Assembly: GCA_030615855.1 (NCBI GenBank)
Contig: JAUWYL010000027.1
Location: forward strand, 1-14,361
Reading direction: 5' to 3'
DNA length: 14,361 nt
Source of the DNA: a bacterium
Lineage (GTDB): Bacteria > UBP18 > UBA7526
Position numbers and translations under genes: made by a program. The notes below the pieces were generated by a model. That model had not been told where the DNA came from and made no database searches. It worked only from the letters and a program-made list of their open reading frames with translations. Every line of letters starts with the position of its first letter. Position 1 is the first letter of the stretch. Below, piece after piece: positions 1,763 through 13,362 of this stretch.

Positions 1763-1794
1763 AGTTAACAAGTTGATAAGTTAATAAGTTAACA
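1763..1794. repeat. 8-bp tandem array, AGTTRAYA family (4 units)
   Basis: Four consecutive octamers are visible: AGTTAACA, AGTTGATA, AGTTAATA and AGTTAACA. The same family recurs at 5239-5278 in the leader of the preT gene. It lies just upstream of the AOR start on the minus strand. No coding or terminator function is apparent. Confidence 0.8.
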
Positions 1795-1814
1795 AGTCAG
1801 TGAAAATTCTCTAT

Positions 1815-1849
1815 TTGGTTATTGGAAATTAGAAATTGGATATTGGAAA
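1815..1849. repeat. 7-bp tandem array, TTGGAAA family (5 units)
   Basis: Five consecutive heptamers are visible: TTGGTTA, TTGGAAA, TTAGAAA, TTGGATA and TTGGAAA. The array sits between an octamer array at 1763-1794 and another at 1868-1907, so the spacer between the polyferredoxin and AOR genes consists almost wholly of three unrelated arrays. Confidence 0.75.
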
Positions 1850-1867
1850 TTAAATCACGTGGGCTTT

Positions 1868-1907
1868 ACTCCCACTTTCTCACCTGCTCACTTTCCCATT
1901 TTCTCAC
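1868..1907 (-). repeat. 8-bp tandem array, GTGAGAAA family (5 units), containing the ferredoxin stop codon
   Basis: Read on the minus strand, five consecutive octamers are present: GTGAGAAA, ATGGGAAA, GTGAGCAG, GTGAGAAA and GTGGGAGT. The TGA stop codon of the polyferredoxin gene (1904-1906) is the TGA inside the first unit, so the array starts within the coding region's last codons. Confidence 0.8.
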
Positions 1908-2389
1908 TCTTTGCTAATTAACTTAAGTAACTCCGGGAGATGCTCGATGCTTTCTCTTCGCTTGGCCATGGTTGCCTTATCTGCCTCTTCGTATTTAAGG
2001 GCCTCTGAGGGGCAGATCTTTACGCACTCCGGGTCACCATCACAGAGGTCACACTTAATGGGCCTCTTCTCCTCATCATCGAAGTGGATGGCACCAAAGG
2101 GGCAGGCAGAGACGCAGGCCTTACACCCGATGCAGAGATCGTAGTTAATGACTAAAGCAGCGGTCTCTTCATTCAGGGATATAGCATTCACCGGGCAGAC
2201 CGCCTGACAGGCTGGCTTCTCACACTGCTGGCAGACCATGGGCACATCCCGACTGATCTCATCGAACTTGATGAGAGCAATTCCGGAAAGAGAGGACTTA
2301 AAGGTCTGGTAATGCTTGGCACTACAGACCAGTTCACAATCCCGACAGCCAACACACTTACTGGCATCCACTATTAATATTTTGGCCAT
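1904..2389 (-). CDS. Polyferredoxin, AorA-like electron-transfer subunit (four 4Cys motifs)
   Basis: A 161-residue cytoplasmic iron-sulfur protein with sixteen cysteines in four clusters: C12/C15/C18/C22, C53/C56/C61/C65, C86/C89/C92/C96 and C113/C116/C122/C126. This can bind four [4Fe-4S] centres, as in the HycB/CooF/AorA group of electron carriers. No signal peptide or membrane segment is visible. Size and cluster pattern match the small AorA subunit that accompanies AOR in multi-subunit aldehyde oxidoreductases, and the AOR gene is directly downstream, so it most likely takes electrons from AOR. The start at 2389 has a GGAGG ribosome site about five bases upstream. Its TGA stop is contributed by a repeat unit (array 1868-1907). 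Assignment as an AOR partner rests on gene order; the ferredoxin-type fold is certain. Confidence 0.93.
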   Translation of the reverse strand: MAKILIVDASKCVGCRDCELVCSAKHYQTFKSSLSGIALIKFDEISRDVPMVCQQCEKPACQAVCPVNAISLNEETAALVINYDLCIGCKACVSACPFGAIHFDDEEKRPIKCDLCDGDPECVKICPSEALKYEEADKATMAKRRESIEHLPELLKLISKE

Positions 2390-2403
2390 AAAACCTCCAT
2401 AAA

Positions 2404-2526
2404 GGGTTAAGGGTTAAGAGTTAAGGGTTAAGGTTAGGTAGTTAGTTTAGTTGTTAGGTCAGGTAGTTGGTCTTTAAACACCTAACCCTTACCCAACTAC
2501 CAAACCCACTACTTTACCCTAACCCA
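2404..2526. repeat. Telomere-like GGGTTAA heptamers and a C-rich complementary half
   Basis: The left part has four consecutive heptamers (GGGTTAA, GGGTTAA, GAGTTAA, GGGTTAA) at 2404-2431, continuing into degenerate TTAGGTAG-like units. The right part (about 2480-2526) is C-rich and roughly complementary. A perfect 9-bp inverted repeat, GGTAGTTGG at 2462-2470 with CCAACTACC at 2493-2501, lies at the centre. It fills the spacer between preA and the polyferredoxin gene. The minus-strand transcript of 2485-2526 would carry five GGG runs and could form a G-quadruplex or a long imperfect hairpin. No terminator T-run follows. Confidence 0.75.
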
Positions 2527-2549
2527 ATTATCAAAGATGTTTCCTATTC

Positions 2550-3785
2550 TTAAACCGTGGCTATCTTGCGGGGCTTTTCGCTCTCTTTCAGTTCTATGCA
2601 GTCATCGATGGGACAGGCAGACTGACAGAGTCCACAGCCGAAGCACTTCTCCTCATCCACCTCTGGTCTGCGCTCTCTTCCCAATTCAATGGCCTGATGT
2701 CCTCCATCCTGGCAGGCGTAGTAACAGAGGCCACAGCGCACACACTTCTTGAGGTCGATGTGAGAGGTTACCCGATTCTTTCGGGAAAGGTCATCATGAC
2801 CAACAATGTAAGGCAGGGACTTACCGATGAGGTCCTTTACCCTGGAAATCCCCTTCTCCTCCATATAAAAGGCTAACCCTTCGCAGAGGTCCTCAATGAT
2901 GTCGTAGCCATAGTGCATGACCGCGGTGCAGAATTGGACGGTGGTTGCCCCACAAAGCATAAACTCTAAAGCATCTATCCAGTTGACCGCCCCGCCGGTT
3001 CCGGTAATGGGTAAGCCGACAGTCTTTGAGAGCTCAGAGATGACTTTTAAAGTAATGGGCTTAATAGCCGGACCGGATAGGCCGCTATAGGTTGTCTTTC
3101 CTGCTACATTGGGGTTGGGTATGAAGTTCTCAATGTCGATGCCCATTAAGGAAGGAATGGTATTCGAGGCGCAGATAGCGTCTGCTCCTCCCTTCTTAAC
3201 TGCATTGGCTACGGCAACGATATCCGCTACCATAGGGGTTATCTTGATTACTACTGGCGTTTTCTTGGCGGCGCTCTTTACCCATCTGGTCACCATCTCC
3301 GTAGCAGGAATAGACTGGGCGAGCATAGCTCCCGGAACCTCTCCCATAGAGCCCTGGGGACAGGAGAAGGAGCACTCTATGATGTCCACTCCAGCGGCCT
3401 TCAATCTCTTTACCAGATGTTGCCAATCCTCTTTCTTCGCTCCCATGATGCTGGCAGCAATTACTCTCTCATCCCCAAACTCCTTCTTTAAGACCTCTAT
3501 CCTCTTCTCCACAAGATCGATATGATGCTCACTGATGAGGTCAATGTTTCCCATCCCTACGACCTTTTTATTCTCAAAAGATAGACCGCTTATCATAGGA
3601 TAGACTAATTCTACCTTATTCTTTTCCACTGAGGTGGTCTTTAATACCGCCCCGGCCCATCCCATCTCCAATCCTCTCTTTAGCATATCCAGGTCATCTG
3701 TGGGTGGTGCCGCAGAGAGAATAAAGGGGTTATTAAATTTTACTCCACAGAACTCTATTCCTAAATTAACTGGTATAGTCTTCAT
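2550..3785 (-). CDS. preA: NAD-dependent dihydropyrimidine dehydrogenase, catalytic subunit PreA
   Basis: This protein reduces uracil or thymine to the 5,6-dihydro form (or the reverse) with electrons from the PreT partner. It has 411 residues, the length I recall for E. coli PreA. An N-terminal dihydroorotate-dehydrogenase-like FMN barrel begins around NNPFILSAAPP (18-28) and GWAGAVLKTTS. The active-site loop ECSFSCPQ places the catalytic cysteine at C142. Two C-terminal [4Fe-4S] motifs follow, CVRCGLCYYAC and CFGCGLCQSAC, then a final Cys in DDCIEL. The ATG at 3785 has an AAGGAGG site. The preT-like gene ends 80 bp upstream, across a heptamer array. No dihydropyrimidinase or ureidopropionase gene is visible, so full pyrimidine breakdown is not shown here. 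A related PreA-like role on another substrate remains possible. Confidence 0.93.
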   Translation of the reverse strand: MKTIPVNLGIEFCGVKFNNPFILSAAPPTDDLDMLKRGLEMGWAGAVLKTTSVEKNKVELVYPMISGLSFENKKVVGMGNIDLISEHHIDLVEKRIEVLKKEFGDERVIAASIMGAKKEDWQHLVKRLKAAGVDIIECSFSCPQGSMGEVPGAMLAQSIPATEMVTRWVKSAAKKTPVVIKITPMVADIVAVANAVKKGGADAICASNTIPSLMGIDIENFIPNPNVAGKTTYSGLSGPAIKPITLKVISELSKTVGLPITGTGGAVNWIDALEFMLCGATTVQFCTAVMHYGYDIIEDLCEGLAFYMEEKGISRVKDLIGKSLPYIVGHDDLSRKNRVTSHIDLKKCVRCGLCYYACQDGGHQAIELGRERRPEVDEEKCFGCGLCQSACPIDDCIELKESEKPRKIATV

Positions 3786-3809
3786 CGTCTTCCTCCTTAT
3801 TTAAAAATG

Positions 3810-3858
3810 GTTTACTGTTTACGGTTTACCGTTAACCGTACACTGTTCACCGTAAACT
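3810..3858. repeat. 7-bp tandem array, GTTTACC family (7 units)
   Basis: Seven consecutive heptamers are visible: GTTTACT, GTTTACG, GTTTACC, GTTAACC, GTACACT, GTTCACC and GTAAACT. Units towards the right drift to forms that pair with units on the left, so the transcript can fold back. The array ends seven bases from the preT stop codon. The same family occurs inside the deaminase coding region at 7049-7083. Confidence 0.85.
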
Positions 3859-3865
3859 TTCCTAC

Positions 3866-5218
3866 TTATCTTTTGCGCTTTAGGTAAGCATCAATGGCTT
3901 CTGCTGCGGCATTGCCATCAGCCACTGCCTGAACAGCAGTAGCTCCCCGATTGACAATGTCTCCCGCAGCAAAGACCCCGGGACGAGAAGTCTTAAAGGT
4001 TTTTTTCTTTGCTACGATATACCCTGGTCCAGCAGTCTCTATTCCTTTAAATCCTTTGACATTCCCGGTATCTGGTATCTGGCCGATGGCCTCGATTACC
4101 GTATCGACTTTAAGACTGAACTCTGTCCCTGGGATGGGAATGGCATTGGAGGGAATGAAGAGACCGGGCTTGCGCCACCTAATGCCTATTCCTTTATATC
4201 CCGTTACTCTTCCTTTTGAGCCTATAATCTTTAAAGGCATGACCCGGGTATTAATCTCCACTCCCTCTTCCCAACAGATCCTTCTCTCCTCTGGCGAGGA
4301 GGGCATCTCATCATAACCTTCCAGACAGACGAGATCGACTCTCTGCGCACCAAGCCGCAGAGCACAAGAGGCAGCATCCATGGCCACATCACCGCCACCG
4401 ATGACTACCACCCTCTTCCCAATCTTGGTCTGCTTCGTCCTCCCCTTATTAGTAATTACATCCTTCAAGAATTCTAAGGCGGTATAGACTCCTTTCAGAT
4501 TCTCACCAGGCAGGCCGATCTTCCTCGCCCCAGGTAATCCTACTCCAATGAATATGGCCTTAAAGTCTTTTTTGAAGAGTTCATCGATATTCATTATCTT
4601 TGTTTTACATCTTATCTTTACCCCTATTCTCTTTATATAACGAATTTCCTTCTGGACTGCAGAGGAAGGGAGCCGATGGGGAGGTATCCCATAGGTCAAT
4701 AATCCTCCTGGTTTGGCCTCGGCCTCAAAGATGGTAACCTCGTATCCTTTTTGAGCGAGATTGGCGGCCACTGCTAAGCCCGCCGGGCCAGAGCCGATTA
4801 TGGCTACCTTTATCCTTTGAGCGAATTGACGGGCTGATGGGCTGACGGATCGACGCAATTCAACATCAGCAACATATCTCTGTAGGGCAGCGATATTTAT
4901 GGGAATATCGATCTCGGTGTTACTACACTCTTTCTGGCAGAGTAGCTCCTGGGGACAGACCTTTCCACAGATTCCCGCCAAGACATTTGCCTCTCTAATC
5001 TCCCTTATAGCCCCCCTCAGGTTATGGAATCTTATCTTTCTGATAAATGCCTTAATATCCACTCCTGCTGGACATCCCTTGGTGCAAGGGGCATCCTCGC
5101 ACATCAGGCAGCGTGAGGCCTCCAGATAGGCTTGATGGGGCTCATAACATCGGTGAATCTCACGAAAACCCTTTTTTCTTTCTTCTGGTAGTAGAGTAGT
5201 GGCCGTCTTGTTTGACAT
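3866..5218 (-). CDS. preT: FAD/Fe-S NAD(P)H oxidoreductase, PreT / GltD-like
   Basis: A 450-residue flavoprotein that moves electrons between NAD(P)H and a partner enzyme. The N-terminal Fe-S domain has C37/C40/C45/C49 (CLMCEDAPCTKGC) and C84/C88/C94/C98. The FAD Rossmann motif is GSGPAG at 142-147 followed by an EAEAKPGG strand. The NAD(P) motif is GGGDVAM at 274-280. A C-terminal FAD contact, GVFAAGD, ends the fold. I chose the ATG at 5218 because AAGGAGGT lies seven bases upstream; a start at 5263 would read through the 8-bp repeat array and its residues look non-coding. PreA directly downstream makes PreT the best name (E. coli PreT is about 412 residues). GltD and the AorC flavin subunit of AOR complexes share this architecture, so it may serve the downstream AOR as well. 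Confidence 0.92.
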   Translation of the reverse strand: MSNKTATTLLPEERKKGFREIHRCYEPHQAYLEASRCLMCEDAPCTKGCPAGVDIKAFIRKIRFHNLRGAIREIREANVLAGICGKVCPQELLCQKECSNTEIDIPINIAALQRYVADVELRRSVSPSARQFAQRIKVAIIGSGPAGLAVAANLAQKGYEVTIFEAEAKPGGLLTYGIPPHRLPSSAVQKEIRYIKRIGVKIRCKTKIMNIDELFKKDFKAIFIGVGLPGARKIGLPGENLKGVYTALEFLKDVITNKGRTKQTKIGKRVVVIGGGDVAMDAASCALRLGAQRVDLVCLEGYDEMPSSPEERRICWEEGVEINTRVMPLKIIGSKGRVTGYKGIGIRWRKPGLFIPSNAIPIPGTEFSLKVDTVIEAIGQIPDTGNVKGFKGIETAGPGYIVAKKKTFKTSRPGVFAAGDIVNRGATAVQAVADGNAAAEAIDAYLKRKR

Positions 5219-5238
5219 AATATACCTCCTTGTAAAAT

Positions 5239-5278
5239 AGTTGACAAGTTGACAAGTTAACAAGTTGAAGAGTTGAAA
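5239..5278. repeat. 8-bp tandem array, AGTTRAYA family (5 units)
   Basis: Five consecutive octamers are visible: AGTTGACA, AGTTGACA, AGTTAACA, AGTTGAAG and AGTTGAAA. It is the same family as 1763-1794. It lies in the predicted 5' leader of the preT transcript, ending about ten bases from the ribosome binding site. Confidence 0.82.
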
Positions 5279-5281
5279 AAT

Positions 5282-5318
5282 CTAACAAACTAACAAGCAA
5301 GCAAACTAACAAACTAAG
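5282..5318. repeat. 8-bp tandem array, CTAACAAA family (4 units plus a partial)
   Basis: Consecutive octamers CTAACAAA, CTAACAAG, CAAGCAAA and CTAACAAA are followed by CTAAG. It adjoins the AGTTRAYA array with a few bases between them, and also lies in the predicted preT leader. Confidence 0.78.
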
Positions 5319-5350
5319 ATTCTTTACTCACCCCTGTTTCCTACTTGAAA

Positions 5351-5379
5351 AGTATACTTTAAAATGTTTTTAGGGTCAA
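5351..5379 (-). promoter_or_regulatory. Predicted sigma70-type promoter of the preT-preA-ferredoxin-AOR operon
   Basis: On the minus strand TTGACC (5374-5379) and TATACT (5351-5356) are separated by exactly 17 bp. Both boxes are close to the TTGACA/TATAAT consensus. A transcript would start near 5344 and carry a leader of about 125 nt made largely of two octamer arrays. The -10 box lies inside a perfect 12-bp palindrome, AAAGTATACTTT (5349-5360), a possible operator. No start site was measured. Confidence 0.65.
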
Positions 5380-5435
5380 CCCCGCTCCTTCCCAAATATG
5401 GAATTATGTCATAAAGAAGGGGCGGGGTCAAGTCC
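5373..5435. repeat. Inverted repeat with GGGTCAA flanks (possible REP-like element)
   Basis: Arms ACCCCGCTCCTTC (5379-5391) and GAAGGGGCGGGGT (5416-5428) pair over 13 positions with one G-T wobble across a 24-base loop. GGGTCAA occurs in the same orientation at 5373-5379 and 5425-5431. It lies between the DUF5684-like gene and preT. It lacks a T-run after either arm, so it is not a convincing terminator. Short GGGTCAAGTCC-containing palindromes of this sort accompany REP-associated transposases in some genomes; that link is from memory and no transposase is present. Confidence 0.55.
5403..5431 (-). promoter_or_regulatory. Second possible tandem promoter upstream of preT
   Basis: TTGACC (5426-5431) and CATAAT (5403-5408) on the minus strand are separated by 17 bp, with TG one base before the -10 box (extended -10). 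It lies 52 bp upstream of the stronger promoter and starts in the second GGGTCAA copy, so it may be a by-product of duplicated sequence instead of an active promoter. Confidence 0.4.
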
Positions 5436-5456
5436 TTTCCTCGGTAAAGATTTGCT

Positions 5457-5783
5457 TTACTTGGAAAACGCCAAGTAGCCAGGAATAATCAGGTTGACGA
5501 AGGGAACAATCATCAGTATTCCTATCCAGCTTGCCTTTCCTCGGGCTTGGGCAACTCCCATCCAAACAATGATGGTGATGACGATATTGACAAGCGGAAT
5601 GAGAAAGAGAAGCAACCACCAGCCAGGCTTACCAGCTACTTTACAGAGTAGGTAGACATTGGCTATTGGTATCCAGGCCAGCCAGCCATTCTTGGTATTC
5701 GTCTTTTTTGCCATAGTTTGGAGGGCAATGGCCAGATAGACATAGATTCCCAGATAAACGATAACCTGCAAAAAATTACCCAT
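5457..5783 (-). CDS. Small multi-pass membrane protein, DUF5684-like
   Basis: A 108-residue hydrophobic protein of unknown function. Hydrophobic segments are visible at about 4-22, 34-49, 55-76 and 86-105, suggesting three to four membrane helices. The motifs NGWLAWIPIANVYLLCKVAGKPGWW and IPLVNI resemble DUF5684 proteins, where aromatic and proline-rich turns join helices. The start at 5783 is well supported: its ribosome site AAGGAGGTGA overlaps the stop codon of the preceding deaminase gene, only six bases away, so translation of the two is probably coupled. That coupling suggests a related role, perhaps in transport or membrane placement, but nothing in the protein shows a substrate. The family call is from memory of the motif pattern and is moderately secure. 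Confidence 0.82.
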   Translation of the reverse strand: MGNFLQVIVYLGIYVYLAIALQTMAKKTNTKNGWLAWIPIANVYLLCKVAGKPGWWLLLFLIPLVNIVITIIVWMGVAQARGKASWIGILMIVPFVNLIIPGYLAFSK

Positions 5784-5789
5784 ATCTAC

Positions 5790-7223
5790 TCACCTCCTTT
5801 CTAAGTAGTTTATTCCAGTTCTTTTGCTTGCTTTTTTTAACATCTCAGAAGCAATCTTATTCGCTTTGTCAATTACTTTCTCTTCATCTAAATTCAATAA
5901 CTTTCCATCCTGGACCAATATCTTGCCGTTAACGATAGTAGTATTAACGATATGACTATTGCCAGAGAAGAGGAGGGCGGCTACTGGATCGTGCATCCCT
6001 CCGGCATAGCCTAATTTTTTAGTATCTATCAAGATAATATCCGCTGCCTTACCTACTTCAATGCTTCCTATATCATCCCTTCCTAAGATTTGTGCCCCTC
6101 CTCTGGTGGCCATCCATAATATATCATCCACAGGCATAGATTCTATTCCGGATTTTATCCTATGAATGAGTAGGCATTGGCGAAGTTCTCCTAACATATC
6201 TGAGGAGTCATTAGAGGCGCTACCATCCACCGCCAGACTGACTACTACCCCTTCATCGAGCATCTTTCTAACTGGTGCAATCCCCGAACCAAGCCTCAGG
6301 TTAGATGTCGGGCAGTGGGTGATACCAGTCTTGGTCTTGGCCAATAATTTTATCTCCTCATCATTGAGATGAATCCCATGGGCAAACCAGACATCATCTC
6401 CCAGCCAGCTGAGACTCTCCATATAGGCGAGGGGCCTTATCTTATGGGTTTTAAGACAGTATTTTTCTTCATCTAAGGTCTCTGCTATATGGGTGTGACA
6501 TCTCACCTTCTTCTTTCGGGCAAATTCCACCGTCTTTTTCAATAGTTCTTTGGTTACTGAGAAGGGCGAACAGGGAGCAAGGGCAATTCTTAGCATAGAA
6601 TATTTTTCTGGATCATGGTATTTATTAATCAATCTCTCGGAGTCTTTTAATATCTTTTCCTCACTCTGAACAAGATCATCCGGGGGAAGACCACCTTCTG
6701 ATTTCCCCAAGGACATACTTCCCCTGCAGGGATGAAACCTGATACCGATTTCCTTGGCGGCCTTTATTTCGTAATCGATTAAATCCTTTGGCTTATCCTT
6801 GGGAAAAATATAGAACTGGTCAACGGTGGTTGTGCATCCGGTAAGAAGTAATTCTCCCATTCCCACCTGGGCGCTGACATAGACCCCTTCTGGAGTTATC
6901 TCTCTCCATATCTCATATAATATCTTTATCCAGTCAAATAGTTCCGCATCCTGAACCGCAGGGATATTTCTATTCAATGTCTGATAGAGATGATGGTGGG
7001 TATTGATGAGGCCGGGAAGAACGACTTTGTCGGTAGCGTCGATGATCTGGTGAACGGTTAATGGTTTACGGTTTACGGTTAAATACCTTTTTTCTAAATC
7101 GGCAGTAGGGCCAACATCTTTGATGACATTATCTTCAATATAGATAGCACCATTTTCGATGCGGGTCTTCTTATTATCCATAGTAGCAATTACTTTAACA
7201 TTCCTAACCAATAACTTGCTCAT
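5790..7223 (-). CDS. Amidohydrolase, 8-oxoguanine deaminase-like
   Basis: A 477-residue metal-dependent hydrolase of the cytoplasmic ATZ/TRZ/8-oxoguanine deaminase group, which removes an amino group from an aromatic ring; 8-oxoguanine would give urate. The metal-site motifs are all present: NTHHH (H76, H78), HTHIAE (243-248), AHGIH (H282) and VDGSASND with D333. The stretches AVQDAELFDW (89-98) and RGSMSLGKSEGGLPPD (167-182) are what I recall for 8-oxoguanine deaminases, as against hydroxyatrazine or cytosine deaminases. The ATG at 7223 has an AAGGTGAG site. Residues about 47-58 are encoded by a 7-bp repeat array (7049-7083), apparently an in-frame insertion between the N-terminal strand region and the barrel. 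A DUF5684-like gene is translationally coupled downstream. The exact substrate is inferred, not proven. Confidence 0.87.
   Translation of the reverse strand: MSKLLVRNVKVIATMDNKKTRIENGAIYIEDNVIKDVGPTADLEKRYLTVNRKPLTVHQIIDATDKVVLPGLINTHHHLYQTLNRNIPAVQDAELFDWIKILYEIWREITPEGVYVSAQVGMGELLLTGCTTTVDQFYIFPKDKPKDLIDYEIKAAKEIGIRFHPCRGSMSLGKSEGGLPPDDLVQSEEKILKDSERLINKYHDPEKYSMLRIALAPCSPFSVTKELLKKTVEFARKKKVRCHTHIAETLDEEKYCLKTHKIRPLAYMESLSWLGDDVWFAHGIHLNDEEIKLLAKTKTGITHCPTSNLRLGSGIAPVRKMLDEGVVVSLAVDGSASNDSSDMLGELRQCLLIHRIKSGIESMPVDDILWMATRGGAQILGRDDIGSIEVGKAADIILIDTKKLGYAGGMHDPVAALLFSGNSHIVNTTIVNGKILVQDGKLLNLDEEKVIDKANKIASEMLKKASKRTGINYLERR
7049..7083. repeat. 7-bp tandem array inside the deaminase coding region (5 units)
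   Basis: Five consecutive heptamers on the plus strand: GGTGAAC, GGTTAAT, GGTTTAC, GGTTTAC and GGTTAAA. The same family as the intergenic array 3810-3858. On the minus strand it is translated as YLTVNRKPLTVH (residues 47-58), just before the conserved IIDATDKVVLPG segment. It produces no stop codon in that frame. Confidence 0.85.
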
Positions 7224-7236
7224 TTTCTCACCTTGT

Positions 7237-7289
7237 AACCGCCAAAACGCAAAATTTAATGCAAAGACGCAAAACTAAAGCCTATTTTG
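7237..7289. repeat. Dispersed repeat, AACCGC-AAAACG-AAAGACGCAAA family, copy 1
   Basis: The order AACCGC, AAAACG, AAAATTT, AAAGACGCAAA, AAACT and CTATTTTG is shared with a second copy at 12004-12065, with small gaps. This copy lies directly upstream of the deaminase ribosome binding site. It overlaps the heptamer array at 7284-7318. Confidence 0.6.
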
Positions 7290-7318
7290 CATTTTGCATT
7301 TTGCATTTTGAATTTTGC
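7284..7318. repeat. 7-bp tandem array, ATTTTGC family (5 units)
   Basis: Five consecutive heptamers: ATTTTGC three times, ATTTTGA, then ATTTTGC. The array ends five bases from the tyrS stop codon and fills much of the 100-bp spacer between tyrS and the deaminase gene. Confidence 0.85.
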
Positions 7319-7323
7319 ATTGT

Positions 7324-8508
7324 TTACTTTCCCACTATCCTGATGAATCTTCTCTTTCCTACCTTAAGGATGGTTCCTTCTCTGATAGTCAGCTCCTTCT
7401 CCGGGTCGATAATTCTTTCTCCATCCAGAGTAACTGCCCCCTGCTGAATAAGGCGTCTGGCCTCAGAGGAACTCTTGGCCATTTTAGAGATAGTTAATAG
7501 TTTAACGACCCATATCTTCTTCTTAGAAACTTTTACTTTTGGTATTCTGTGAGGTAGTTTCTTTTCTTTGAAGACTTCTTCAAACTCTTCAGCTGCTTCT
7601 TTGGCGGCCTTCCTGCTATGGTACATTTTCACTATTCTTATCGCCAGATTCTTCTTTGCTTCCTTAGGATGTAGCCTTCCACTCTTTAGATTTCTCTTTA
7701 TCCTGGCTAATTCAGCAGGAGAAATATTAGTTACTAATTCCCAATATCTAAGCATCAATTTATCAGAGATGGACATTATCTTGCCAAATATCTCTTTGGG
7801 TGGCTCACTTATCCCGATATAGTTATCATAGGTCTTACTCATTTTCCTTATTCCATCCGTCCCCTCTAAGAGAGGTATGGTAATCACTACCTGAGGCTTC
7901 TGGCCATACTCCCTTTGCAACACTCTACCAACCAACATATTGAACTTCTGGTCTGTTCCTCCTATCTCAATATCTGCCTTTAAAACAATGGAGTCGTAGC
8001 CCTGAATGAGAGGATACAAGAACTCATGGATGGAGATGGGGTGCTCCTTCCTATACCTCAGAGAGAAGTCATCCCTCTCAAGCATCCGAGCCACAGTATA
8101 CTTTGAGGCTAAGTTAAATATATCACTAGAGGTCAATTTATCGAGCCATACACTATTAAAGACTATCTGGGTCTTCTTCCTATCCAGGATCTTGAATACC
8201 TGATCCTGATAGGTCCGGGCATTCTTTAAGACCTCTTTTCTGCTCAGAGGCTTTCTGGTCTCTATTCTTCCTGAAGGGTCTCCAATCCTTGCCGTAAAGT
8301 CTCCGATGACAAAGATGATCTTGTGGCCCAAGTCCTGGAACTGCCTTAACTTCTGTAAGACGACAGTATGGCCCAGATGAATATCAGGAACTGTAGGATC
8401 TGCCCCGAACTTTACCCTCAAAGGTCTCTTCTTCCTCAGACACTTTTTTAGCTCATCCTTGGTTAGTATCTCGACCGTTCCCCTTCTTATTACTTCTAAA
8501 TCTTTCAT
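7324..8508 (-). CDS. tyrS: Tyrosyl-tRNA synthetase
   Basis: This class I synthetase charges tRNA-Tyr with tyrosine in the cytoplasm. The HIGH-type motif is HLGH (44-47), preceded by [10 protein letters not shown]. The KMSKS motif is KMSKT (222-226). The tyrosine-pocket segment [12 protein letters not shown] (181-192) and a C-terminal S4 RNA-binding domain (about 328-394) complete the usual order. I use the ATG at 8508, giving 394 residues, with GGGGTG just upstream; a TTG at 8523 in frame would add five residues. It is transcribed away from the PBP1A gene, from a predicted promoter at 8530-8558 with a leader of only about 20 nt. There is no room for a T-box. A heptamer array starts five bases after its stop codon. 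Confidence 0.96.
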
Positions 8509-8529
8509 TGTCACACCCCACAAGTTTTT

Positions 8530-8558
8530 AGTTTAACATACTTTCTTTTTAAAAGCAA
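8530..8558 (-). promoter_or_regulatory. Predicted tyrS promoter (minus strand)
   Basis: TTGCTT (8553-8558) and TAAACT (8530-8535) on the minus strand are 17 bp apart, and TG one base before the -10 box makes an extended -10. The start codon of tyrS follows about 20 bases downstream. Both boxes are imperfect. Confidence 0.5.
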
Positions 8559-8575
8559 AGGAAAATTTAGAATTT

Positions 8576-8604
8576 TTGACTTTTTGATTTGTTTTTAGTA
8601 TAAT
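8576..8604 (+). promoter_or_regulatory. Predicted sigma70 promoter of the PBP1A-type gene
   Basis: TTGACT (8576-8581) and a perfect TATAAT (8599-8604) are separated by 17 bp. Transcription would start near 8611, followed by AGGAG (8620-8624) six bases before the ATG at 8631. It is divergent to the tyrS promoter, and the two -35 boxes are about 17 bp apart. Confidence 0.8.
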
Positions 8605-8630
8605 ATGTAATTGCCTATCAGGAGTGAAGA

Positions 8631-11024
8631 ATGTTTAGAGATTTGAAGAAAACTTGGGAGAAGATAGAGAAATCTGGCTCAAAGAGGGATAAGATCGCCT
8701 TCATCAGCATTCTGAGCCTATTCTCTCTTATTATTCTGGGCTTGATCATAGCACCCCTCCACCTCTATCTCTCCACCCTACCCTCCATCCGTGCTTTCGA
8801 GGACTATCGGCCAGGGATCATTACCAAGATATATGACGCGAACGGGCAGTTGATCGGTCAGTTTGCCGAAGAGCGGAGGATACTCATTCCTCTGACCTCT
8901 GTCCCCAAGAGCCTCCTGGATGCCACCATCGCTGTCGAGGATTCCAGGTTCTATCGCCACTGTGGAATAGACTTCCCGGGGATTGTGAGAGCAGCCTGGA
9001 TGAACCTAAAGGCGAGAAGGATTGTGGAGGGAGGTTCAACCATCACCCAGCAGCTCTCCAAGCTCTTATTCTTAACCCCAGAAAAGACCATAAGGAGGAA
9101 GATAAAGGAGGCGGTTTTAGCCCTCCAGATCGAACATAGATATTCCAAGGATGAGATCCTGGAGTTATACTTCAATCAGATATACTTTGGCCATGGGGCC
9201 TATGGGGTAGAAGCAGCAGCCAACACCTACTTTGGAAAACACGCCCAGGAATTGACCTCAGCAGAGTCTGCCCTCCTGGCTGGCCTTCCTCGCTCTCCCT
9301 CCCGCTACTCCCCCTATAATAACCCGGAATTAGCCCTGAGGAGAAGGGCCCATGCCTTGAGAAGGATGGTCAAGGAAGGCTTTATCAGGGAAGGAGAAGC
9401 GGCTGAGGCGAACCAGGAACCCCTGGAGCTAAAGAGGCTTACTGCCGGTGAGAATGAGGCTCCCTATTTTGTAGAGCACATCAGACGCCAGCTGGAGAGA
9501 AGATACGGGACCCACGCTATTTATCGGGGAGGGTTGAGGGTCTACACCACTTTAGATTTAGAGATGCAGAAGACTGCCCAGAAATCACTCAAGGAGGGCG
9601 TAAGAAATGTAGACAAGACCTTTGGCTGGAGGAAACCAGAGAAAGCAACAGAGGAGGAATTGGCCTTATTTGCCAAGGAGAAGAGGTCCCGCATCTTGGC
9701 CCTGCTTGAAGAGGGAGAAGTTTATTCTGGGATAGTAGTGAAAGCCGCGAGCACCTTTGCCCTCATTGACCTGAAAGGAGGATTAAAAGGGATTCTGTCT
9801 GCTAAGAACATCGCCTGGACGGGCTTCAGATATCCCTCCACTATCCTGAAGCCGAAGAATAAGGTGGATGTCAGGGTCGTTGAACTGGATAGAGAAAAGG
9901 AGAGGATAATATTAGCCTTAGAACAGAGACCGAAGATTCAGGGAGCCATGGTAGTCCTAGAGCCTTCTACGGGATATATCCGGGCCATGGTGGGAGGATA
10001 TGACTTCGAAGAGAGCGAATTCAATAGGGTAACCCAGGCCCGAAGGCAGCCGGGCTCTTCCTTCAAGCCCTTCATCTATACCGCGGCCATCGACAGTGGC
10101 TATCCCCCCACCTATATCATAATCGATGCTCCAGTGATCTATGATGACTGGGGTGAGAAGTGGACCCCCAGGAATTATGATGAGAAGTTTCTGGGACCAA
10201 CTACCTTGAGGGTGGGCCTGGCCCAGTCAAGGAATGTGGTTACCGTAAAATTATTGGAGAAGATCGGGGTCAAGAAAGTAATTAGTTATGCTCATAGAAT
10301 GGGTATCAAGACTTATCTTGGCCCGGATCTTTCTTTAGCCTTAGGAACCTCGGAGGTCATCCCTTTAGAAATGGCCTCGGCCTATGGAGTCTTTCCCAAT
10401 CAGGGGATAAAGACTAAGCCCCTATCCATCTTAAAAGTCGAGGATCGCAGTGGGAATATCTTAGAAGAGAACTTTCCTAAAGAGGAAGAGGTATTGAGTC
10501 CGGCCACCTGTTATATTATGACCAATCTTTTAAAAGGGGTGGTGGAGCGGGGCACAGGTTGGAGGGCGCGGGCAGTGGGCCGCCCCTGCGCTGCCAAGAC
10601 AGGAACCACGGATGAATGCACCGATGCCTGGTTCATTGGTTTTACTCCTGATTTGGTGACCTGTGTCTGGGTAGGATTTGATGAAAAGATATCTTTGGGT
10701 AAGGATATGACCGGCTCCCGGGTAGCAGGGCCAATATGGACAGATTTTATGAGAGAGGTCTTCCAGGATAGGCCAATCAGAGAATTCCCCATCCCGGAGA
10801 AGAAATTGACCTTTGCCCGCATTTGCCCAGAGAGTGGCCTATTAGCAACCAAGGAGTGCCCCCAGGTGATGGTGGAGGCTTTCCTGGAGGGAACGGCGCC
10901 TACAGAATACTGCGATTTACACGGTCTGGAAAGGATTCCCGGAAAGGGGTGGGCCTTAAGGCTCATCGAGCCCCAGAAGAAGAAGGAACTGGAGAGCCCC
11001 TTCAGCCTGGAACTCATACCCTAG
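8631..11024 (+). CDS. Penicillin-binding protein 1A family, bifunctional peptidoglycan synthase
   Basis: A 797-residue inner-membrane enzyme that polymerises and cross-links peptidoglycan in the periplasm. A short cytoplasmic head precedes one membrane helix (about 23-45). The GT51 glycosyltransferase domain has EDSRFYRHCGID with catalytic E103, GGSTITQQLSK (134-144) and the RRKIKEAVLALQIE segment. An OB-like insert (about 365-430) leads to the transpeptidase domain with SSFK (S476, K479), SRN (533-535) and KTGT (656-659). All catalytic motifs are intact. The gene has its own strong promoter and an AGGAG site. Its end is odd: the frame stops at 11022-11024, while the -1 frame continues to 11101 as an acidic protein-like tail, which may point to a frameshift near the 3' end. 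A family name such as mrcA or ponA would be arbitrary. Confidence 0.95.
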   Translation: MFRDLKKTWEKIEKSGSKRDKIAFISILSLFSLIILGLIIAPLHLYLSTLPSIRAFEDYRPGIITKIYDANGQLIGQFAEERRILIPLTSVPKSLLDATIAVEDSRFYRHCGIDFPGIVRAAWMNLKARRIVEGGSTITQQLSKLLFLTPEKTIRRKIKEAVLALQIEHRYSKDEILELYFNQIYFGHGAYGVEAAANTYFGKHAQELTSAESALLAGLPRSPSRYSPYNNPELALRRRAHALRRMVKEGFIREGEAAEANQEPLELKRLTAGENEAPYFVEHIRRQLERRYGTHAIYRGGLRVYTTLDLEMQKTAQKSLKEGVRNVDKTFGWRKPEKATEEELALFAKEKRSRILALLEEGEVYSGIVVKAASTFALIDLKGGLKGILSAKNIAWTGFRYPSTILKPKNKVDVRVVELDREKERIILALEQRPKIQGAMVVLEPSTGYIRAMVGGYDFEESEFNRVTQARRQPGSSFKPFIYTAAIDSGYPPTYIIIDAPVIYDDWGEKWTPRNYDEKFLGPTTLRVGLAQSRNVVTVKLLEKIGVKKVISYAHRMGIKTYLGPDLSLALGTSEVIPLEMASAYGVFPNQGIKTKPLSILKVEDRSGNILEENFPKEEEVLSPATCYIMTNLLKGVVERGTGWRARAVGRPCAAKTGTTDECTDAWFIGFTPDLVTCVWVGFDEKISLGKDMTGSRVAGPIWTDFMREVFQDRPIREFPIPEKKLTFARICPESGLLATKECPQVMVEAFLEGTAPTEYCDLHGLERIPGKGWALRLIEPQKKKELESPFSLELIP

Positions 11025-11257
11025 AAGAACTGGAAAGAGAATTAAGCCTCTACGAGGAATCGATAAGCATAAGCGAAGAGCCTTATATTGAGAATCAATA
11101 GAAGGGGCAAGCTTTATAGCGCGCCTTCATAGTGAATAGCAAACGATGGCGACGGTTACTACACTTCGCTGTTACTACTGGTTACTACATCCGGCTAAAG
11201 CCGGATTGTTACGATCAGTTGCGTAACTCTTAGTAACCGATGATAGAGGGGGGGATT
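11025..11257. other. Spacer between the PBP1A-type and DUF2148 genes, with short hairpins
   Basis: There is no convincing gene in this 233-bp stretch, apart from the out-of-frame continuation of the PBP1A tail up to 11101. A perfect hairpin, ATCCGGCT/AGCCGGAT (11189-11196 and 11199-11206), is flanked by GGTTACTA repeats. CGGTTACTA at 11153-11161 and TAGTAACCG at 11231-11239 form a perfect 9-bp outer inverted repeat. No T-run follows the hairpin, so it is not a typical terminator, and no clear promoter is visible for the DUF2148 gene. Confidence 0.6.
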
Positions 11258-11785
11258 ATGATAGAGAAAGGGAACGAGGCAGAGAAAGAGGTAATAAAAC
11301 AAGTAGCAGAGTTTATGTGTGCCACTGCCCGCACGGCACCCAAGGCAAAGGGAATGGACAATATTGTAACGGCCATTATAAGTGACGAAGATAAGGGGCG
11401 CTTAGCAGATGAGATGGAGAAAATCGGAAGAAAGAAAAAGAGAAAGAGTTTCTTGAGGGATAGTGAGAATATAAGGAAGGTACCCCTTTTAGTCTTGATA
11501 GGAACAGAGGCCAGACCCATTGGATTAGCGGTCTGTGGGTTATGTGGTTTCAAGGATTGTAAGGAACTGGAAAAGATGGGTGGAATATGTGCCTTCAATA
11601 GCGGGGATCTGGGGATTGCTATAGGGAGTGCGGTCTCCCTGGCAGCCAACTTTCATATAGATAACCGGATTATGTATACTGCAGGGATTGCTGCCTTAAA
11701 TCTAAGACTATTGGGAAAGGATGTAAGAATCGCTTTCGGTATCCCTTTAAGTATCAGCGGGAAGAATCCTTTTTTCGATAGGTGA
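11258..11785 (+). CDS. DUF2148 ferredoxin-like protein
   Basis: A 175-residue predicted cytoplasmic Fe-S protein of unknown function, matching the DUF2148 family of ferredoxin-domain proteins. The family's N-terminal signature is seen as ATARTAPKAKGMDNI (22-36). The cysteines C93, C96, C101 and C111 (CGLCGFKDC plus a later Cys) can ligate one [4Fe-4S] cluster. A glycine/alanine-rich C-terminal half (GIAIGSAVSLAA, MYTAGIAALN) is also typical. I use the ATG at 11258, since a GAGGGGGGG run lies just before it; the ATG at 11240 would add six residues and lacks a ribosome site. The gene stands alone on the plus strand and ends in a strong terminator at 11852-11879. Its stop codon abuts an ACACGGAT array. 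The family call is firm; the role is unknown. Confidence 0.88.
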   Translation: MIEKGNEAEKEVIKQVAEFMCATARTAPKAKGMDNIVTAIISDEDKGRLADEMEKIGRKKKRKSFLRDSENIRKVPLLVLIGTEARPIGLAVCGLCGFKDCKELEKMGGICAFNSGDLGIAIGSAVSLAANFHIDNRIMYTAGIAALNLRLLGKDVRIAFGIPLSISGKNPFFDR

Positions 11786-11838
11786 CACGGATAAACACGG
11801 ATACCAACACGGATAAGCGCGGATATTAATACGGATCT
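11785..11838. repeat. ACACGGAT array, about 12-bp period
   Basis: Units are ACACGGATAA, ACACGGATACCA, ACACGGATAAGC, GCGGATATTAAT and ACGGATCT. The first base is the last base of the DUF2148 TGA stop codon. The same family recurs at 13136-13170 upstream of the HU gene. Confidence 0.78.
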
Positions 11839-11851
11839 ACACGAATAAAAG

Positions 11852-11879
11852 AAAAGGGCTTCTTGAGCCCTTTTTAATT
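11852..11879 (+). terminator. Rho-independent terminator after the DUF2148 gene
   Basis: AAAAGGGCT (11852-11860) and AGCCCTTTT (11866-11874) form a perfect 9-bp stem with a five-base TCTTG loop, followed by a T-rich tail. It is correctly placed for plus-strand transcripts ending about 65 bases after the DUF2148 stop. An A-rich run on the left may let it act weakly on the other strand too. Confidence 0.88.
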
Positions 11880-11896
11880 TATTTGCTTTTTTATTA

Positions 11897-11963
11897 TGTT
11901 TCCAAATTCTTATGTTTTTTAATGAACTTAAAAACCCGCCGAAAAGGCGGGCATTTGGAAACA
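11897..11963. repeat. 11-bp inverted repeats flanking the minus-strand terminator
   Basis: TGTTTCCAAAT (11897-11907) and ATTTGGAAACA (11953-11963) are perfect inverted copies 45 bp apart. They enclose the terminator hairpin at 11934-11952. The 67-bp unit could be an extended terminator stem, or a tiny mobile or recombination element. No target-site duplication was recognised. Confidence 0.65.
11928..11952 (-). terminator. Rho-independent terminator for the minus-strand phosphoribosyltransferase transcript
   Basis: On the minus strand GCCCGCC (ending at 11946) and GGCGGG (11935-11940) form a GC stem with a short TTTTC loop, followed by TTTTTAAG. It lies about 180 bases beyond the phosphoribosyltransferase stop codon, and with the plus-strand terminator it separates the two convergent genes. 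Confidence 0.82.
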
Positions 11964-12003
11964 ACAACAGAGAAAAAAATATACAAACTTCAGGAAACAC
12001 TGC

Positions 12004-12065
12004 AACCGCAAAAACGTAAAATTTTAACTTAAAGACGCAAAGAAAACTAGAACTCGTCTATTTTG
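12004..12065. repeat. Dispersed repeat, AACCGC-AAAACG-AAAGACGCAAA family, copy 2
   Basis: This copy matches 7237-7289 in the order of its blocks: AACCGC, AAAACG, AAAATTT, AAAGACGCAAA, AAACT and CTATTTTG, with a few inserted bases. It lies in the convergent spacer downstream of the phosphoribosyltransferase gene, so unlike copy 1 it is not next to a start codon. The rest of 11964-12133 shows nothing I can name. Confidence 0.6.
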
Positions 12066-12133
12066 TTTCTTCCATTCTCCATTTCCCTGATAACCTGATT
12101 ACCAGTTATCGTTCACTTGCGGTTAACTATTGC

Positions 12134-12667
12134 CTATCTATCCTTGACTCTTAAGAGAGTCTTTATCTTAAAGCCGGTCTCTTTCTCTATCCTTTTCTTC
12201 CCCTCTCCCCTTTCAAAGACAGTAATGACATCTGCGATTTTAATTCCTGCTTTCTTTAACGCCTTAATGATTCCCAGTAATGTTCCTCCGGTTGAGACAA
12301 TGTCATCAACAATTAACACTCGATCCCCCCTCTTCAGGCCGTTGACATACATCTTGCATTCTGCATAGCCCGTTTTCTGATAAACTTCTAATTCCCCTTT
12401 TAGTTTATATTCCTTTTTCCTAACGACATTTAAGGGAATTTTTGTCTTATATGAGAGAAGGGTAGCGATGGGGATGCCCATTGCTTCCGGAGTGATGATA
12501 TAATCAACATTGAGGTCAGTGACCTCTATGATCCTTTTTACTACATCCTCTAATAGCCCGGATTCTATATAAGGTATTCCATCTGTTATGGGATGGACAA
12601 CATATCTATAGTGACCCTTCATCACTACGGGAGAGGTCTCCCATAATTTCTTCAGTTTCTCAAGCAA
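12134..12667 (-). CDS. Purine phosphoribosyltransferase, archaeal HGPRT/Apt-like
   Basis: A 177-residue type I phosphoribosyltransferase that makes a purine nucleotide from a free base and PRPP in the cytoplasm. The PRPP-binding motif VLIVDDIVSTGGT is at 117-129. The N-terminal stretch VVMKGHYRYVVHPITDGIPYI (14-34) and PEAMGIPIATLLSYKTKIPL (60-79) closely resemble archaeal hypoxanthine/guanine phosphoribosyltransferases as I remember them, more than bacterial hpt or apt. The start is a TTG at 12667, supported by GAGGAGG six bases upstream; no in-frame ATG gives the conserved N-terminus. The HU gene lies upstream in the same direction, separated by repeat arrays. The base used (hypoxanthine, guanine or adenine) cannot be decided here. 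It may have been acquired from archaea, or belong to a bacterial branch of that family. Confidence 0.87.
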   Translation of the reverse strand: MLEKLKKLWETSPVVMKGHYRYVVHPITDGIPYIESGLLEDVVKRIIEVTDLNVDYIITPEAMGIPIATLLSYKTKIPLNVVRKKEYKLKGELEVYQKTGYAECKMYVNGLKRGDRVLIVDDIVSTGGTLLGIIKALKKAGIKIADVITVFERGEGKKRIEKETGFKIKTLLRVKDR

Positions 12668-12685
12668 GATAGGCCTCCTCTAAAT

Positions 12686-12749
12686 CGGTTACTATCGGTT
12701 AAAAACGGTTAATTTCATTCGGTTAATAACGGTTACTATCGGTTAATAA
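12686..12749. repeat. 10-bp tandem array, CGGTTAATAA family (6 units)
   Basis: Six decamers: CGGTTACTAT, CGGTTAAAAA, CGGTTAATTT (then four extra bases), CGGTTAATAA, CGGTTACTAT and CGGTTAATAA. The array begins close to the ribosome binding site of the phosphoribosyltransferase gene. A complementary array lies at 12801-12840. Confidence 0.82.
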
Positions 12750-12765
12750 AATAAAGTTAAGTGAT

Positions 12766-12840
12766 ATGTTGGTTAATATCGGTTGCTTTTTCGCAACTGA
12801 TATTAACTGGTATTAACCAATATTAACTGATGTGAACTGT
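12766..12840. repeat. Hairpin plus inverted 10-bp array, TATTAACYRA family
   Basis: Arms 12772-12786 and 12793-12807 pair over 15 bp with one mismatch around a six-base loop (TTTTTC); wobble pairs extend the stem to 12766-12813. Four decamers (TATTAACTGG, TATTAACCAA, TATTAACTGA, TGTGAACTGT) run from 12801 to 12840, nine bases short of the HU stop codon. They are the reverse complement type of the CGGTTAATAA units on the left. No T-run follows on the minus strand, so a terminator is not supported. Confidence 0.7.
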
Positions 12841-12848
12841 TAGTGATT

Positions 12849-13118
12849 TTACTTGACAGCGTCTTTCAGAGCCTTAGAAGGTTTGAATACTGGAACCTTC
12901 TTGGCTGGGATCTGAATGGTAGCCCCGGTCTGAGGGTTCCTTCCCATTCTGGCTCCCCTCTGCCTTACGCTGAAGATGCCCAATCCTTTGAGGATCACCT
13001 TATCCCCTTTTGCCAAAGATTCCTGAATACTCTTGATGACTACATCCACTGCCTTCTCTGCCTCCTGCTTGGTGCAGGTCACCTTGGCTACTTCCTTCAC
13101 CAACTCTGCCTTTCTCAT
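12849..13118 (-). CDS. hup: HU-family DNA-binding protein
   Basis: An 89-residue histone-like protein that bends and compacts DNA as a dimer. The N-terminal helix (MRKAELVKEVAKVTCTKQEAEKAVD) and the V-shaped dimer core KGDKVILKGLGIFSV are typical. The DNA-binding arm runs from about 52 to 75 (RQRGARMGRNPQTGATIQIPA), with the intercalating proline in RNP at 62. The C-terminal KVPVFKPSKALKDAV is standard. Length matches the usual 90 residues. I use the ATG at 13118 because GGGGAGGT lies five bases upstream; a start at 13139 would add MYKGEVK, which simply translates the ribosome site. IHF subunits share this fold, but a single lone gene with these motifs fits HU better. Its upstream region holds a hairpin at 13168-13190 and an ACACGGAT array. 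Confidence 0.95.
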   Translation of the reverse strand: MRKAELVKEVAKVTCTKQEAEKAVDVVIKSIQESLAKGDKVILKGLGIFSVRQRGARMGRNPQTGATIQIPAKKVPVFKPSKALKDAVK

Positions 13119-13135
13119 TTTTACCTCCCCTTTAT

Positions 13136-13170
13136 ACACGGATCATCACAGATTTATTACGGATTACAGG
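13136..13170. repeat. ACACGGAT array, second copy (3 units)
   Basis: Units ACACGGATCATC, ACAGATTTATT and ACGGATTACAGG have 11-12 bp spacing. The family matches 11785-11838. It lies directly upstream of the HU ribosome binding site. Confidence 0.7.
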
Positions 13171-13190
13171 ATGCACTCCGTTAGCATCCT
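13168..13190 (-). promoter_or_regulatory. Hairpin in the HU gene leader
   Basis: AGGATGC (13168-13174) and GCATCCT (13184-13190) pair perfectly over 7 bp with a nine-base loop. It is about 50 bases upstream of the HU start codon. No T-run follows on the minus strand. A role in mRNA stability or autoregulation is possible but not shown. Confidence 0.45.
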
Positions 13191-13303
13191 AGAGAGCATC
13201 AAATTGATTAATACTTAATCATCAACGGCGGAGAACAAAGTGCGCTGTTTAATATTAAGCATTGCCACAGATCACAGATATTGAATGCTTGATCCTTGTT
13301 CTC

Positions 13304-13327
13304 GATAGCTTGATAGCTTGATAGCTT
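13304..13327. repeat. 8-bp tandem array, GATAGCTT (3 perfect units)
   Basis: Three identical GATAGCTT octamers follow one another. The array lies eight bases from the next octamer array (13335-13362), which runs into the ppdK stop codon. Confidence 0.9.
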
Positions 13328-13334
13328 CAAAACT

Positions 13335-13362
13335 TACTCTCCTACTCTCCTACTCTCCTACT
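13335..13362. repeat. 8-bp tandem array, TACTCTCC (3.5 units), overlapping the ppdK 3' end
   Basis: Three perfect TACTCTCC octamers and a TACT remnant. On the minus strand it reads as GGAGAGTA units. The ppdK TAG stop codon (13342-13344) and its last six codons (SRRVGE) lie inside the array. Confidence 0.9.

Follow-up and report, generated by a model that had tools for sequence, protein, structure and literature searches.

Tandem-word arrays in the spacers of a UBP18-like bacterium are probably the arms of dispersed foldback elements

The window analyzed here, a 14,361-bp contig (C8) from the draft metagenome-assembled genome (MAG) of a UBP18-like bacterium, carries short, degenerate sequence words repeated head to tail in most of its intergenic spacers. 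The genome, hereafter G000, comprises 1.375 Mb in 45 contigs and is 93.6% complete. We propose that these arrays are probably the arms, and fragments of arms, of non-autonomous foldback elements that are dispersed through the genome in many families and whose array arms are prone to slippage. The arrays, their inverted arms, the polarity by which a word W precedes its reverse complement W', the dispersal of 50–240-bp blocks and the exchange of families at individual slots are all observed in the data, the copying step excepted. Our own simple gene caller placed 1340 genes on the 1,374,852 bases of G000 (89% coding), with 809 spacers of at least 30 bp. Gene order is strongly co-directional by this caller, with same-strand genes flanking 778 of the 809 spacers.

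Arrays were counted with Tandem Repeats Finder (TRF) in the 771 spacers of at least 40 bp, using five dinucleotide-preserving shuffles and length-matched coding slices as controls. At a TRF score of at least 40, arrays occur in 314 spacers (41%), compared with 3–8 in the shuffles and 22 in the coding slices; a threshold of at least 30 gives 442 versus 32, and a score of 50 with periods of 5–15 gives 135 versus 0. The periodicity is therefore far beyond chance, the outcome of the shuffle control that an earlier note on the window had set for its own claim of arrays in nearly every spacer. Such density holds for the window, where 8 of 10 spacers of at least 40 bp contain an array; across the genome the share is only 41–57%, depending on threshold. 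TRF reports 12 of the 14 arrays listed in that note, and the remaining two (starting at 1868 and 13136) score under 30, though they lie within repeated stretches. Nor are all arrays strictly intergenic: that at 7049–7080 lies inside an amidohydrolase gene, and that at 13335–13362 overlaps the 3' end of a gene. With one simple gene caller used throughout, array-bearing spacers make up 39% of those in G000, 48% in its congener G002, 35% in other relatives (20 spacers only), 35% in an unrelated 1.0-Mb genome that was picked for a word match (G070), and 4.7% in 75 loci of other bacteria.

The commonest periods in G000 are 7, 14, 8, 10 and 16. Clustering of the units yields GGTTTAC in 46 spacers, TCGTTAC in 28, TAAGTTGA and GAAAGTGG in 21 each, GGTGATC in 20, TTTTGCA in 17, AGAACATC in 16 and TCAGTTAATA in 15, together with a low-complexity AAAATTA cluster of 40 spacers in which several families may be merged. 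The pattern AAACACGGATNNACACGGAT, with up to two mismatches, occurs 81 times, and its reversed control is absent. Spacing is most regular in the ACACGGAT family, where 44 of 67 word triplets are set 10/12 or 12/10 and just one 10/10. Because the words across G000 alternate between 10 and 12–14 bp, never 11, the true unit of this family is a pair of 22–24 bp; other genomes show 10/10 or 9/9.

Many spacers fold far better than their own shuffles, with RNA-fold z scores down to -10.6, because a left array of W stands opposite a right array of its reverse complement; some of these pairs enclose another family. In a survey of co-directional G000 spacers of 60–600 bp, half of the array spacers (50%) had inverted arms with a best score of at least 14, as did 22% of the spacers lacking arrays and 2% of shuffled sequences. 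The median foldback has arms of 44 nt and a loop of 15 nt, and lies 26 nt past the stop codon and 31 nt ahead of the next start. Since a palindrome is identical on both strands, which side carries W and which its complement is a property of the word, and this polarity is nearly fixed: 44:1 for ACACRGAT, 18:0 for CAGTTAATA, 8:0 for AGTAACC, 6:0 for GTTTACG and 6:0 for AAGTTRAY, with 103 to 11 over all matched array pairs in G000. For clusters with at least two ACACGGAT words on each side, the ratio is 40:1 in G000, 9:0 in G002 and 8:3 in foreign genomes. Purines predominate in left arms, where paired positions comprise A 2144, T 1266, G 1044 and C 626. Neither the inverted-arm architecture nor its polarity formed part of the earlier account of these arrays.

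Sequence is shared extensively between spacers. In G000, 431 of the 771 spacers have at least 50 bp in common with another at 80% identity or more, and shuffled spacers give 0 matches. The shared stretches are generally composites of 50–240 bp that contain both arms and the cassettes between them; the largest, of 150–245 bp, occur in both orientations and hold non-repetitive cassettes within their arms. One such cassette, the 24-mer TTAGCCAGCTTGTCTGGCGTCTAT, has 12 copies in G000, 5 in G002 and 1–2 in three other genomes of the family, and was not found in family genome G001 or in any of 17 other genomes. Single-linkage clustering joins up to 333 spacers, a cluster that is not to be read as one element because it certainly chains different families. 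A comparison of G000 with 214 kb of G002, whose genes are about 90% identical, gave 117 non-orthologous matches of at least 70 bp, some at 98–99%; in this unsorted list a few resemble tmRNA or coding remnants rather than elements.

These matches bear on the simplest alternative, that replication slippage alone builds the arrays in place and sequence bias makes the same words recur. Periods of 7 and 8 are common in long bacterial simple sequence repeats, for which a polymerase-footprint effect has been proposed (cited in PMC4692102), and some orthologous arrays in our data do differ by one inserted unit (14_38680). Slippage would not, however, disperse 100–240-bp copies with non-repetitive cassettes, fix the polarity of arms, exchange families between orthologous spacers (see below), or leave the reversed control of ACACGGAT at zero in 241 genomes. 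We regard this explanation as very improbable, and as a sole cause in-place slippage is rejected on the family exchange and the dispersed composites. The earlier proposal that unit families recur at many spacers, that slippage is insufficient and that something spreads between spacers is borne out, but amplification of a short travelling seed in place is not supported, the shared stretches being composites with their arms and cassettes.

Turnover was followed in 75 orthologous spacers of G000 and G002, both draft MAGs. The median identity is 0.89 for orthologous spacers that lack arrays, and the mean for unrelated spacers is 0.38. Where both orthologous spacers hold arrays (n = 37), the words differ in 27 cases, the word is the same in 6 and the array is conserved in 4; in some cases a slot that is filled in either genome is all but empty in its counterpart. 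With 27 of 37 carrying different words, arrays are mostly replaced, not resized, and the changes in unit number anticipated between relatives are not the main mode of change. At two ACACGGAT slots (30_122564, 30_124233) the 10/12 architecture is kept and the word has changed from ACACGGAT to ACGCAGAT throughout, pointing either to concerted change or to a sister element having taken the place of the first. The intragenic GTTTACG array of the window provides an internal contrast, as the relative retains it in spite of the turnover of spacer arrays.

Such turnover also weighs on the possibility that the paired arrays are selected regulatory sites, either binding sites for a global regulator or RNA hairpins of operons (terminators, mRNA stabilizers). 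In favor of selection, the arrays lie after one stop codon and ahead of the following start, ACACGGAT words keep a strict 10+12 spacing reminiscent of binding-site geometry, and the paired opposite-strand octa- and heptanucleotides of Geobacter metallireducens are annotated as predicted global regulator sites. A wholesale exchange of words between congeners would nevertheless be intolerable for a binding site. Dozens of word families are involved, canonical terminators are separate from the arrays, and retention of a hairpin at replaced orthologous slots is weakly correlated (both 29% versus 22% expected, p=0.085). Among arm mismatches read on the sense strand there is no excess of G:U (G:T 281 versus A:C 299). 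Because G:U is not tolerated above its mirror-image mismatch A:C, the result speaks against selection of the arms at the RNA level, and only against that; it excludes no function. On balance we consider regulatory selection an unlikely origin of the arrays.

Profile searches for candidate enzymes covered six genomes of the family, drafts that are 53–94% complete. A reverse transcriptase model (RVT_1) had 0 matches while its positive controls matched, terminal transferase and PolX lying outside the search; Y1_Tnp (PF01797, the RAYT domain) was found in 0 of 6 while controls matched in 5 of 14; and the SbcD and MutS1 models had no match, again with matching positive controls. The G000–G002 comparison revealed no abundant multicopy protein, transposase scans being limited to the RT and Y1 classes. 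The dedicated replication or repair enzyme suggested in the earlier note thus finds no candidate among reverse transcriptase, Y1 transposase, SbcD or MutS. An array-making enzyme, whether a templated reverse transcriptase or a terminal-transferase-like activity, could account for words common to unrelated bacteria and for the variable linkers between words; given the lack of an RVT_1 match in the six genomes and the copying of arms and cassettes as blocks, we lend it hardly any credence.

SbcD is a component of the nuclease by which long hairpins are opened. Among distant genomes it is missing in 8 of 14 that carry the word and in 4 of 20 that do not (Fisher p=0.03), and MutS has no match in 2 of 14 and 1 of 20, respectively; with few genomes, no correction for relatedness and a noisy SbcD model, these associations are leads only. 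They touch on a further alternative in which nothing travels as an element and hairpin-forming spacers exchange sequence by template switching and gene conversion, favored by loss of SbcCD and MutS. The unmatched SbcD and MutS models in the six genomes, the SbcD association, the nested and mosaic structure, and the failure to find an RT or Y1 transposase are all compatible with this. Set against it are the weakness of the SbcD comparison and the 98–99% identical copies at other loci of another species, which require transfer as well. Moreover, shared stretches end in arrays scarcely more often than expected (31.6% versus 28.8%), a result that likewise leaves word-mediated recombination or exchange unsupported. 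We give template switching without an element a small chance.

The foldback-element reading remains the one we favor. A typical element would be an imperfect DNA palindrome in which tandem W units, of 7, 8 or 10 bp or paired as 10+12 bp, make up the left arm and their reverse complement the right, the two enclosing a short loop, another such element or a cassette. New copies would settle downstream of a stop codon, ahead of the ribosome-binding site that follows, older copies would be lost or overwritten, and the arms would then diverge by whole-unit slippage and point mutation. For copying, a DNA-level route appears likelier than an RNA-level one; candidates are a trans-acting transposase and template switching from hairpin to hairpin during replication, a process that may be eased by the apparent absence of SbcCD, a hairpin nuclease. 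Several observations count against this reading. About half of the array spacers have no clear partner arm, and some of the 431 linked spacers may be joined through short array matches or other repeat families. Clean element ends and target-site duplications were not established, junctions of occupied and empty pairs compared by eye showing no constant ends, and the ends of shared stretches do not fall preferentially in arrays. The turnover evidence comes from a single congener, and the enzyme searches detected neither a reverse transcriptase nor a transposase of the class covered.

Some words reach well beyond the family. Among 241 genomes, ACACGGATNNACACGGAT is present in 17, namely five of the six of this family and 12 genomes from 11 other families, and its reversed control matches none of the 241. 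Three consecutive GTTTACG units, in contrast, occur in all 6 family genomes and in 0 of 226 others, and three ATTGGAA units in two distant genomes but not in G000, with one match for the reversed control as well. Lexicons compared with five foreign genomes gave 30 forward and 6 reversed matches, in genomes picked beforehand for a word match. Sharing of every word across phyla was accordingly rejected; occurrence in unrelated bacteria is well established for one word, ACACGGATNNACACGGAT, and unproven for the others. As to vehicles, triple ACACGGAT occurs in 4 IMG/VR stretches versus 1 for the reversed pattern among 2.9 million contigs, and the composite at 13140–13300 has no match in PLSDB, so that neither phage nor plasmid is indicated. 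G070 (L268–L272), from an unrelated family, is array-rich with heptamers of its own (GACTATT, GTGAACC, GAAATTG) and the octamer GCACAAAG, and it lacks SbcD and MutS matches. Tentatively, and with appreciably less assurance than for the foldback elements themselves, we raise the possibility of a class of mobile foldback DNA with tandem-word arms, many families and fixed polarity, most copies of which are replaced between congeners, which moves by a route outside the tested enzyme classes and whose words (ACACGGAT at least) cross phyla.

The features of the window are listed in Table 1. Its two array-free spacers, the divergent promoter spacer at 8508–8630 and that at 11024–11239, are both conserved in the relative. 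Nine of the 10 spacers have copies of at least 40 bp elsewhere in G000, the exception being the divergent promoter spacer, and the stretches 1763–1895, 2412–2530 and 13159–13272 recur there at 87–96% identity. The sole match to a known RNA family, MIR2670 at 2428–2522, is sub-threshold (33.8 bits, cut-off 117) and was taken as chance.

Table 1. Arrays, foldback arms and associated features of the window.
Feature	Position	Strand	Basis and remarks
AGTTRAYA array, 8 bp	1763–1797		TRF; within the 133-bp stretch 1763–1895, which recurs at C13 (87%)
ATTGGAA array, 7 bp	1821–1851		TRF
Degenerate CTCACTTTC-type array, 8 bp	1868–1910		Below TRF threshold; inside repeated stretch, copies C33, C14
AAGGGTT array, 7 bp	2402–2433		TRF
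Foldback left arm (GGGTTAAGGTTAGGTAGTTAG...)	2425–2474		Arm score 22, shuffle maximum 15.5; copies C33, C30, C44, C5
Foldback right arm, partner of 2425–2474	2477–2525		Arm search
GTTTACG array 3810–3839 (7 bp), arms 3810–3833 and 3834–3857	3810–3857		TRF; same word family in relative; foldback weak, arm score 12 within shuffle range (mean 7.4, maximum 13)
AGTTGACA array (5239–5276) then CTAACAAA array (5282–5317), 8 bp each	5239–5317		TRF; orthologous spacer in L071 carries ACACGGAT words instead
GTTTACG array within amidohydrolase gene 5790–7223, encoding LTVNRKPLTVHQ	7049–7080	-	TRF; protein level unchanged in relative G002, other residues in a more distant relative
Foldback: left arm 7246–7274 (ACGCAAAA words), right arm 7292–7321 (ATTTTGC array 7284–7321, 7 bp)	7246–7321		Arm score 16, shuffle maximum 13.5; G002 has a 16-bp spacer at the same slot
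ACACGGAT array, strict 10+12-bp alternation (22 bp)	11785–11849		TRF
Canonical terminator	11855–11877		Rest of the same convergent spacer as the ACACGGAT array
ATCGGTTAAT array, 12684–12748 (10 bp), foldback left arm 12691–12751	12684–12751		TRF; foldback 12691–12844 has arm score 24, shuffle maximum 14; at this slot L071 carries a different foldback (ATCCGTTTGA)
AACTGATATT array, 12795–12839 (10 bp), right arm	12788–12844		TRF; reverse complement of the ATCGGTTAAT-array word
Composite: ACACGGAT-type words flanking cassette GGATGCACTCCGTTAGCATCC...TTAAGCATTG	13136–13272		Copies of 13159–13272 in G000: C9 (95.6%), C40 (90%), C33 (85%)
GATAGCTT array 13304–13327 and TACTCTCC array 13335–13362, 8 bp each	13304–13362		TRF; the TACTCTCC array overlaps the 3' end of the next gene (gene at 13342)

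The genes of the window are ordinary, encoding an aldehyde ferredoxin oxidoreductase-like protein, a ferredoxin, a PreA-like dihydropyrimidine dehydrogenase subunit, a GltA-like subunit, an 8-oxoguanine-deaminase-like amidohydrolase, TyrRS, PBP1A (84–96% identical at protein level to those of other MAGs), a phosphoribosyltransferase and HU. Other repeats are also present. Elements without word arrays, of the form ACCCCGC(A/T)CCTT...AAGG(T/G)GCGGGGT and resembling miniature inverted-repeat transposable elements, lie at 5379–5428 of the window, at C36:12854–13026 and at L225:12692–12779 in G002, and over 88 bp one copy of this family matches a different locus of G002 at 98.9% identity. A palindromic element, CCCCGTTAGA...TCTAACGAGG, sits at L073:3645–3702 inside the orthologue of gene 11240–11785, apparently in frame as judged by eye; related elements occupy spacers of L071 and L072, and together they appear to be a palindromic family of their own, one that is tolerated within genes. 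Several contig ends of G000 (C1, C15, C16, C19, C21, C33, C44, C45) encode proteins with 88–97% identical partners on other contigs, which suggests strain mixture in the assembly.

The short tandemly repeated repetitive (STRR) sequences of cyanobacteria are intergenic heptamer arrays. Microcystis has a range of mixed heptamers, and Beggiatoaceae carry TAACTGA arrays, the same word occurring in distant phyla by a transfer route that is not known (PMC4679880). The degenerate head-to-tail units of about 7–8 bp in G000, chiefly intergenic and at many loci, share this character, whereas facing arms and composites are absent from STRR and Beggiatoaceae arrays. Closer in form are the GGGAATC heptamer arrays of Xanthomonas (186 and 183 per genome) and the GGGGA(C/T)T arrays of Nostoc; in Xanthomonas, two convergent arrays form an inverted repeat in 70–75 cases, and close species differ at the same gene (PMC4692102). 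G000 has in common with these the degenerate heptamer spacer arrays, and its own arrays face each other with fixed polarity. In Xanthomonas and Nostoc, however, each genome has one word family, and interest has centered on G-quadruplexes; G000 has dozens of families with periods of 7, 8 and 10, nested foldbacks, dispersed composites and family exchange, and most of its words lack runs of three G.

In G. metallireducens, multicopy sites (classes 1–3; TWGTTGAY elements) consist of 3–5 hepta- or octanucleotide repeats in tandem and occur as opposite-strand pairs separated by varying distances (PMC2700814). TWGTTGAY resembles the AAGTTGAY word of G000. The Geobacter sites are single classes annotated as predicted regulator sites, and the text consulted mentions neither replacement between relatives nor genome-wide occupancy (PMC2700814). 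REPINs and BIMEs are dispersed, non-autonomous extragenic hairpins of two inverted copies (PMC3116915), and G000 likewise has extragenic, dispersed inverted pairs that are predicted to fold; REP ends, however, are unique palindromes tied to the RAYT Y1 transposase, whereas the arms in G000 are tandem word arrays and Y1_Tnp has no match. The Foldback and Galileo elements of Drosophila have long inverted repeats, possibly of internal tandem repeats, that vary in length between arms and copies (PMC3573991). These are eukaryotic and of kilobase size, with a P-type transposase in Galileo, and the likeness is an analogy of architecture only. In the literature searched we met no genome that combines dozens of facing-array families with nested composites scattered among spacers and a wholesale exchange of families from one congener to the next, nor any paper matching the exact array-word strings. 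Facing short-unit arrays (Xanthomonas, Geobacter) and direct heptamer arrays (cyanobacteria, Beggiatoaceae) are thus already known; the many-family, high-turnover form appears to be new.

The foldback reading would bring the reports on STRR sequences, the Xanthomonas GGGAATC arrays, the Geobacter octamers and the Beggiatoaceae TAACTGA arrays under one question: what copies such arrays, and how do unrelated bacteria come to share words? It also carries a warning, that array words in the spacers of such genomes should not be taken as conserved regulator sites before relatives have been compared. If the reading is true, some bacterial spacers would be neither neutral filler nor mere regulatory DNA but the habitat of fast-exchanging foldback repeats.

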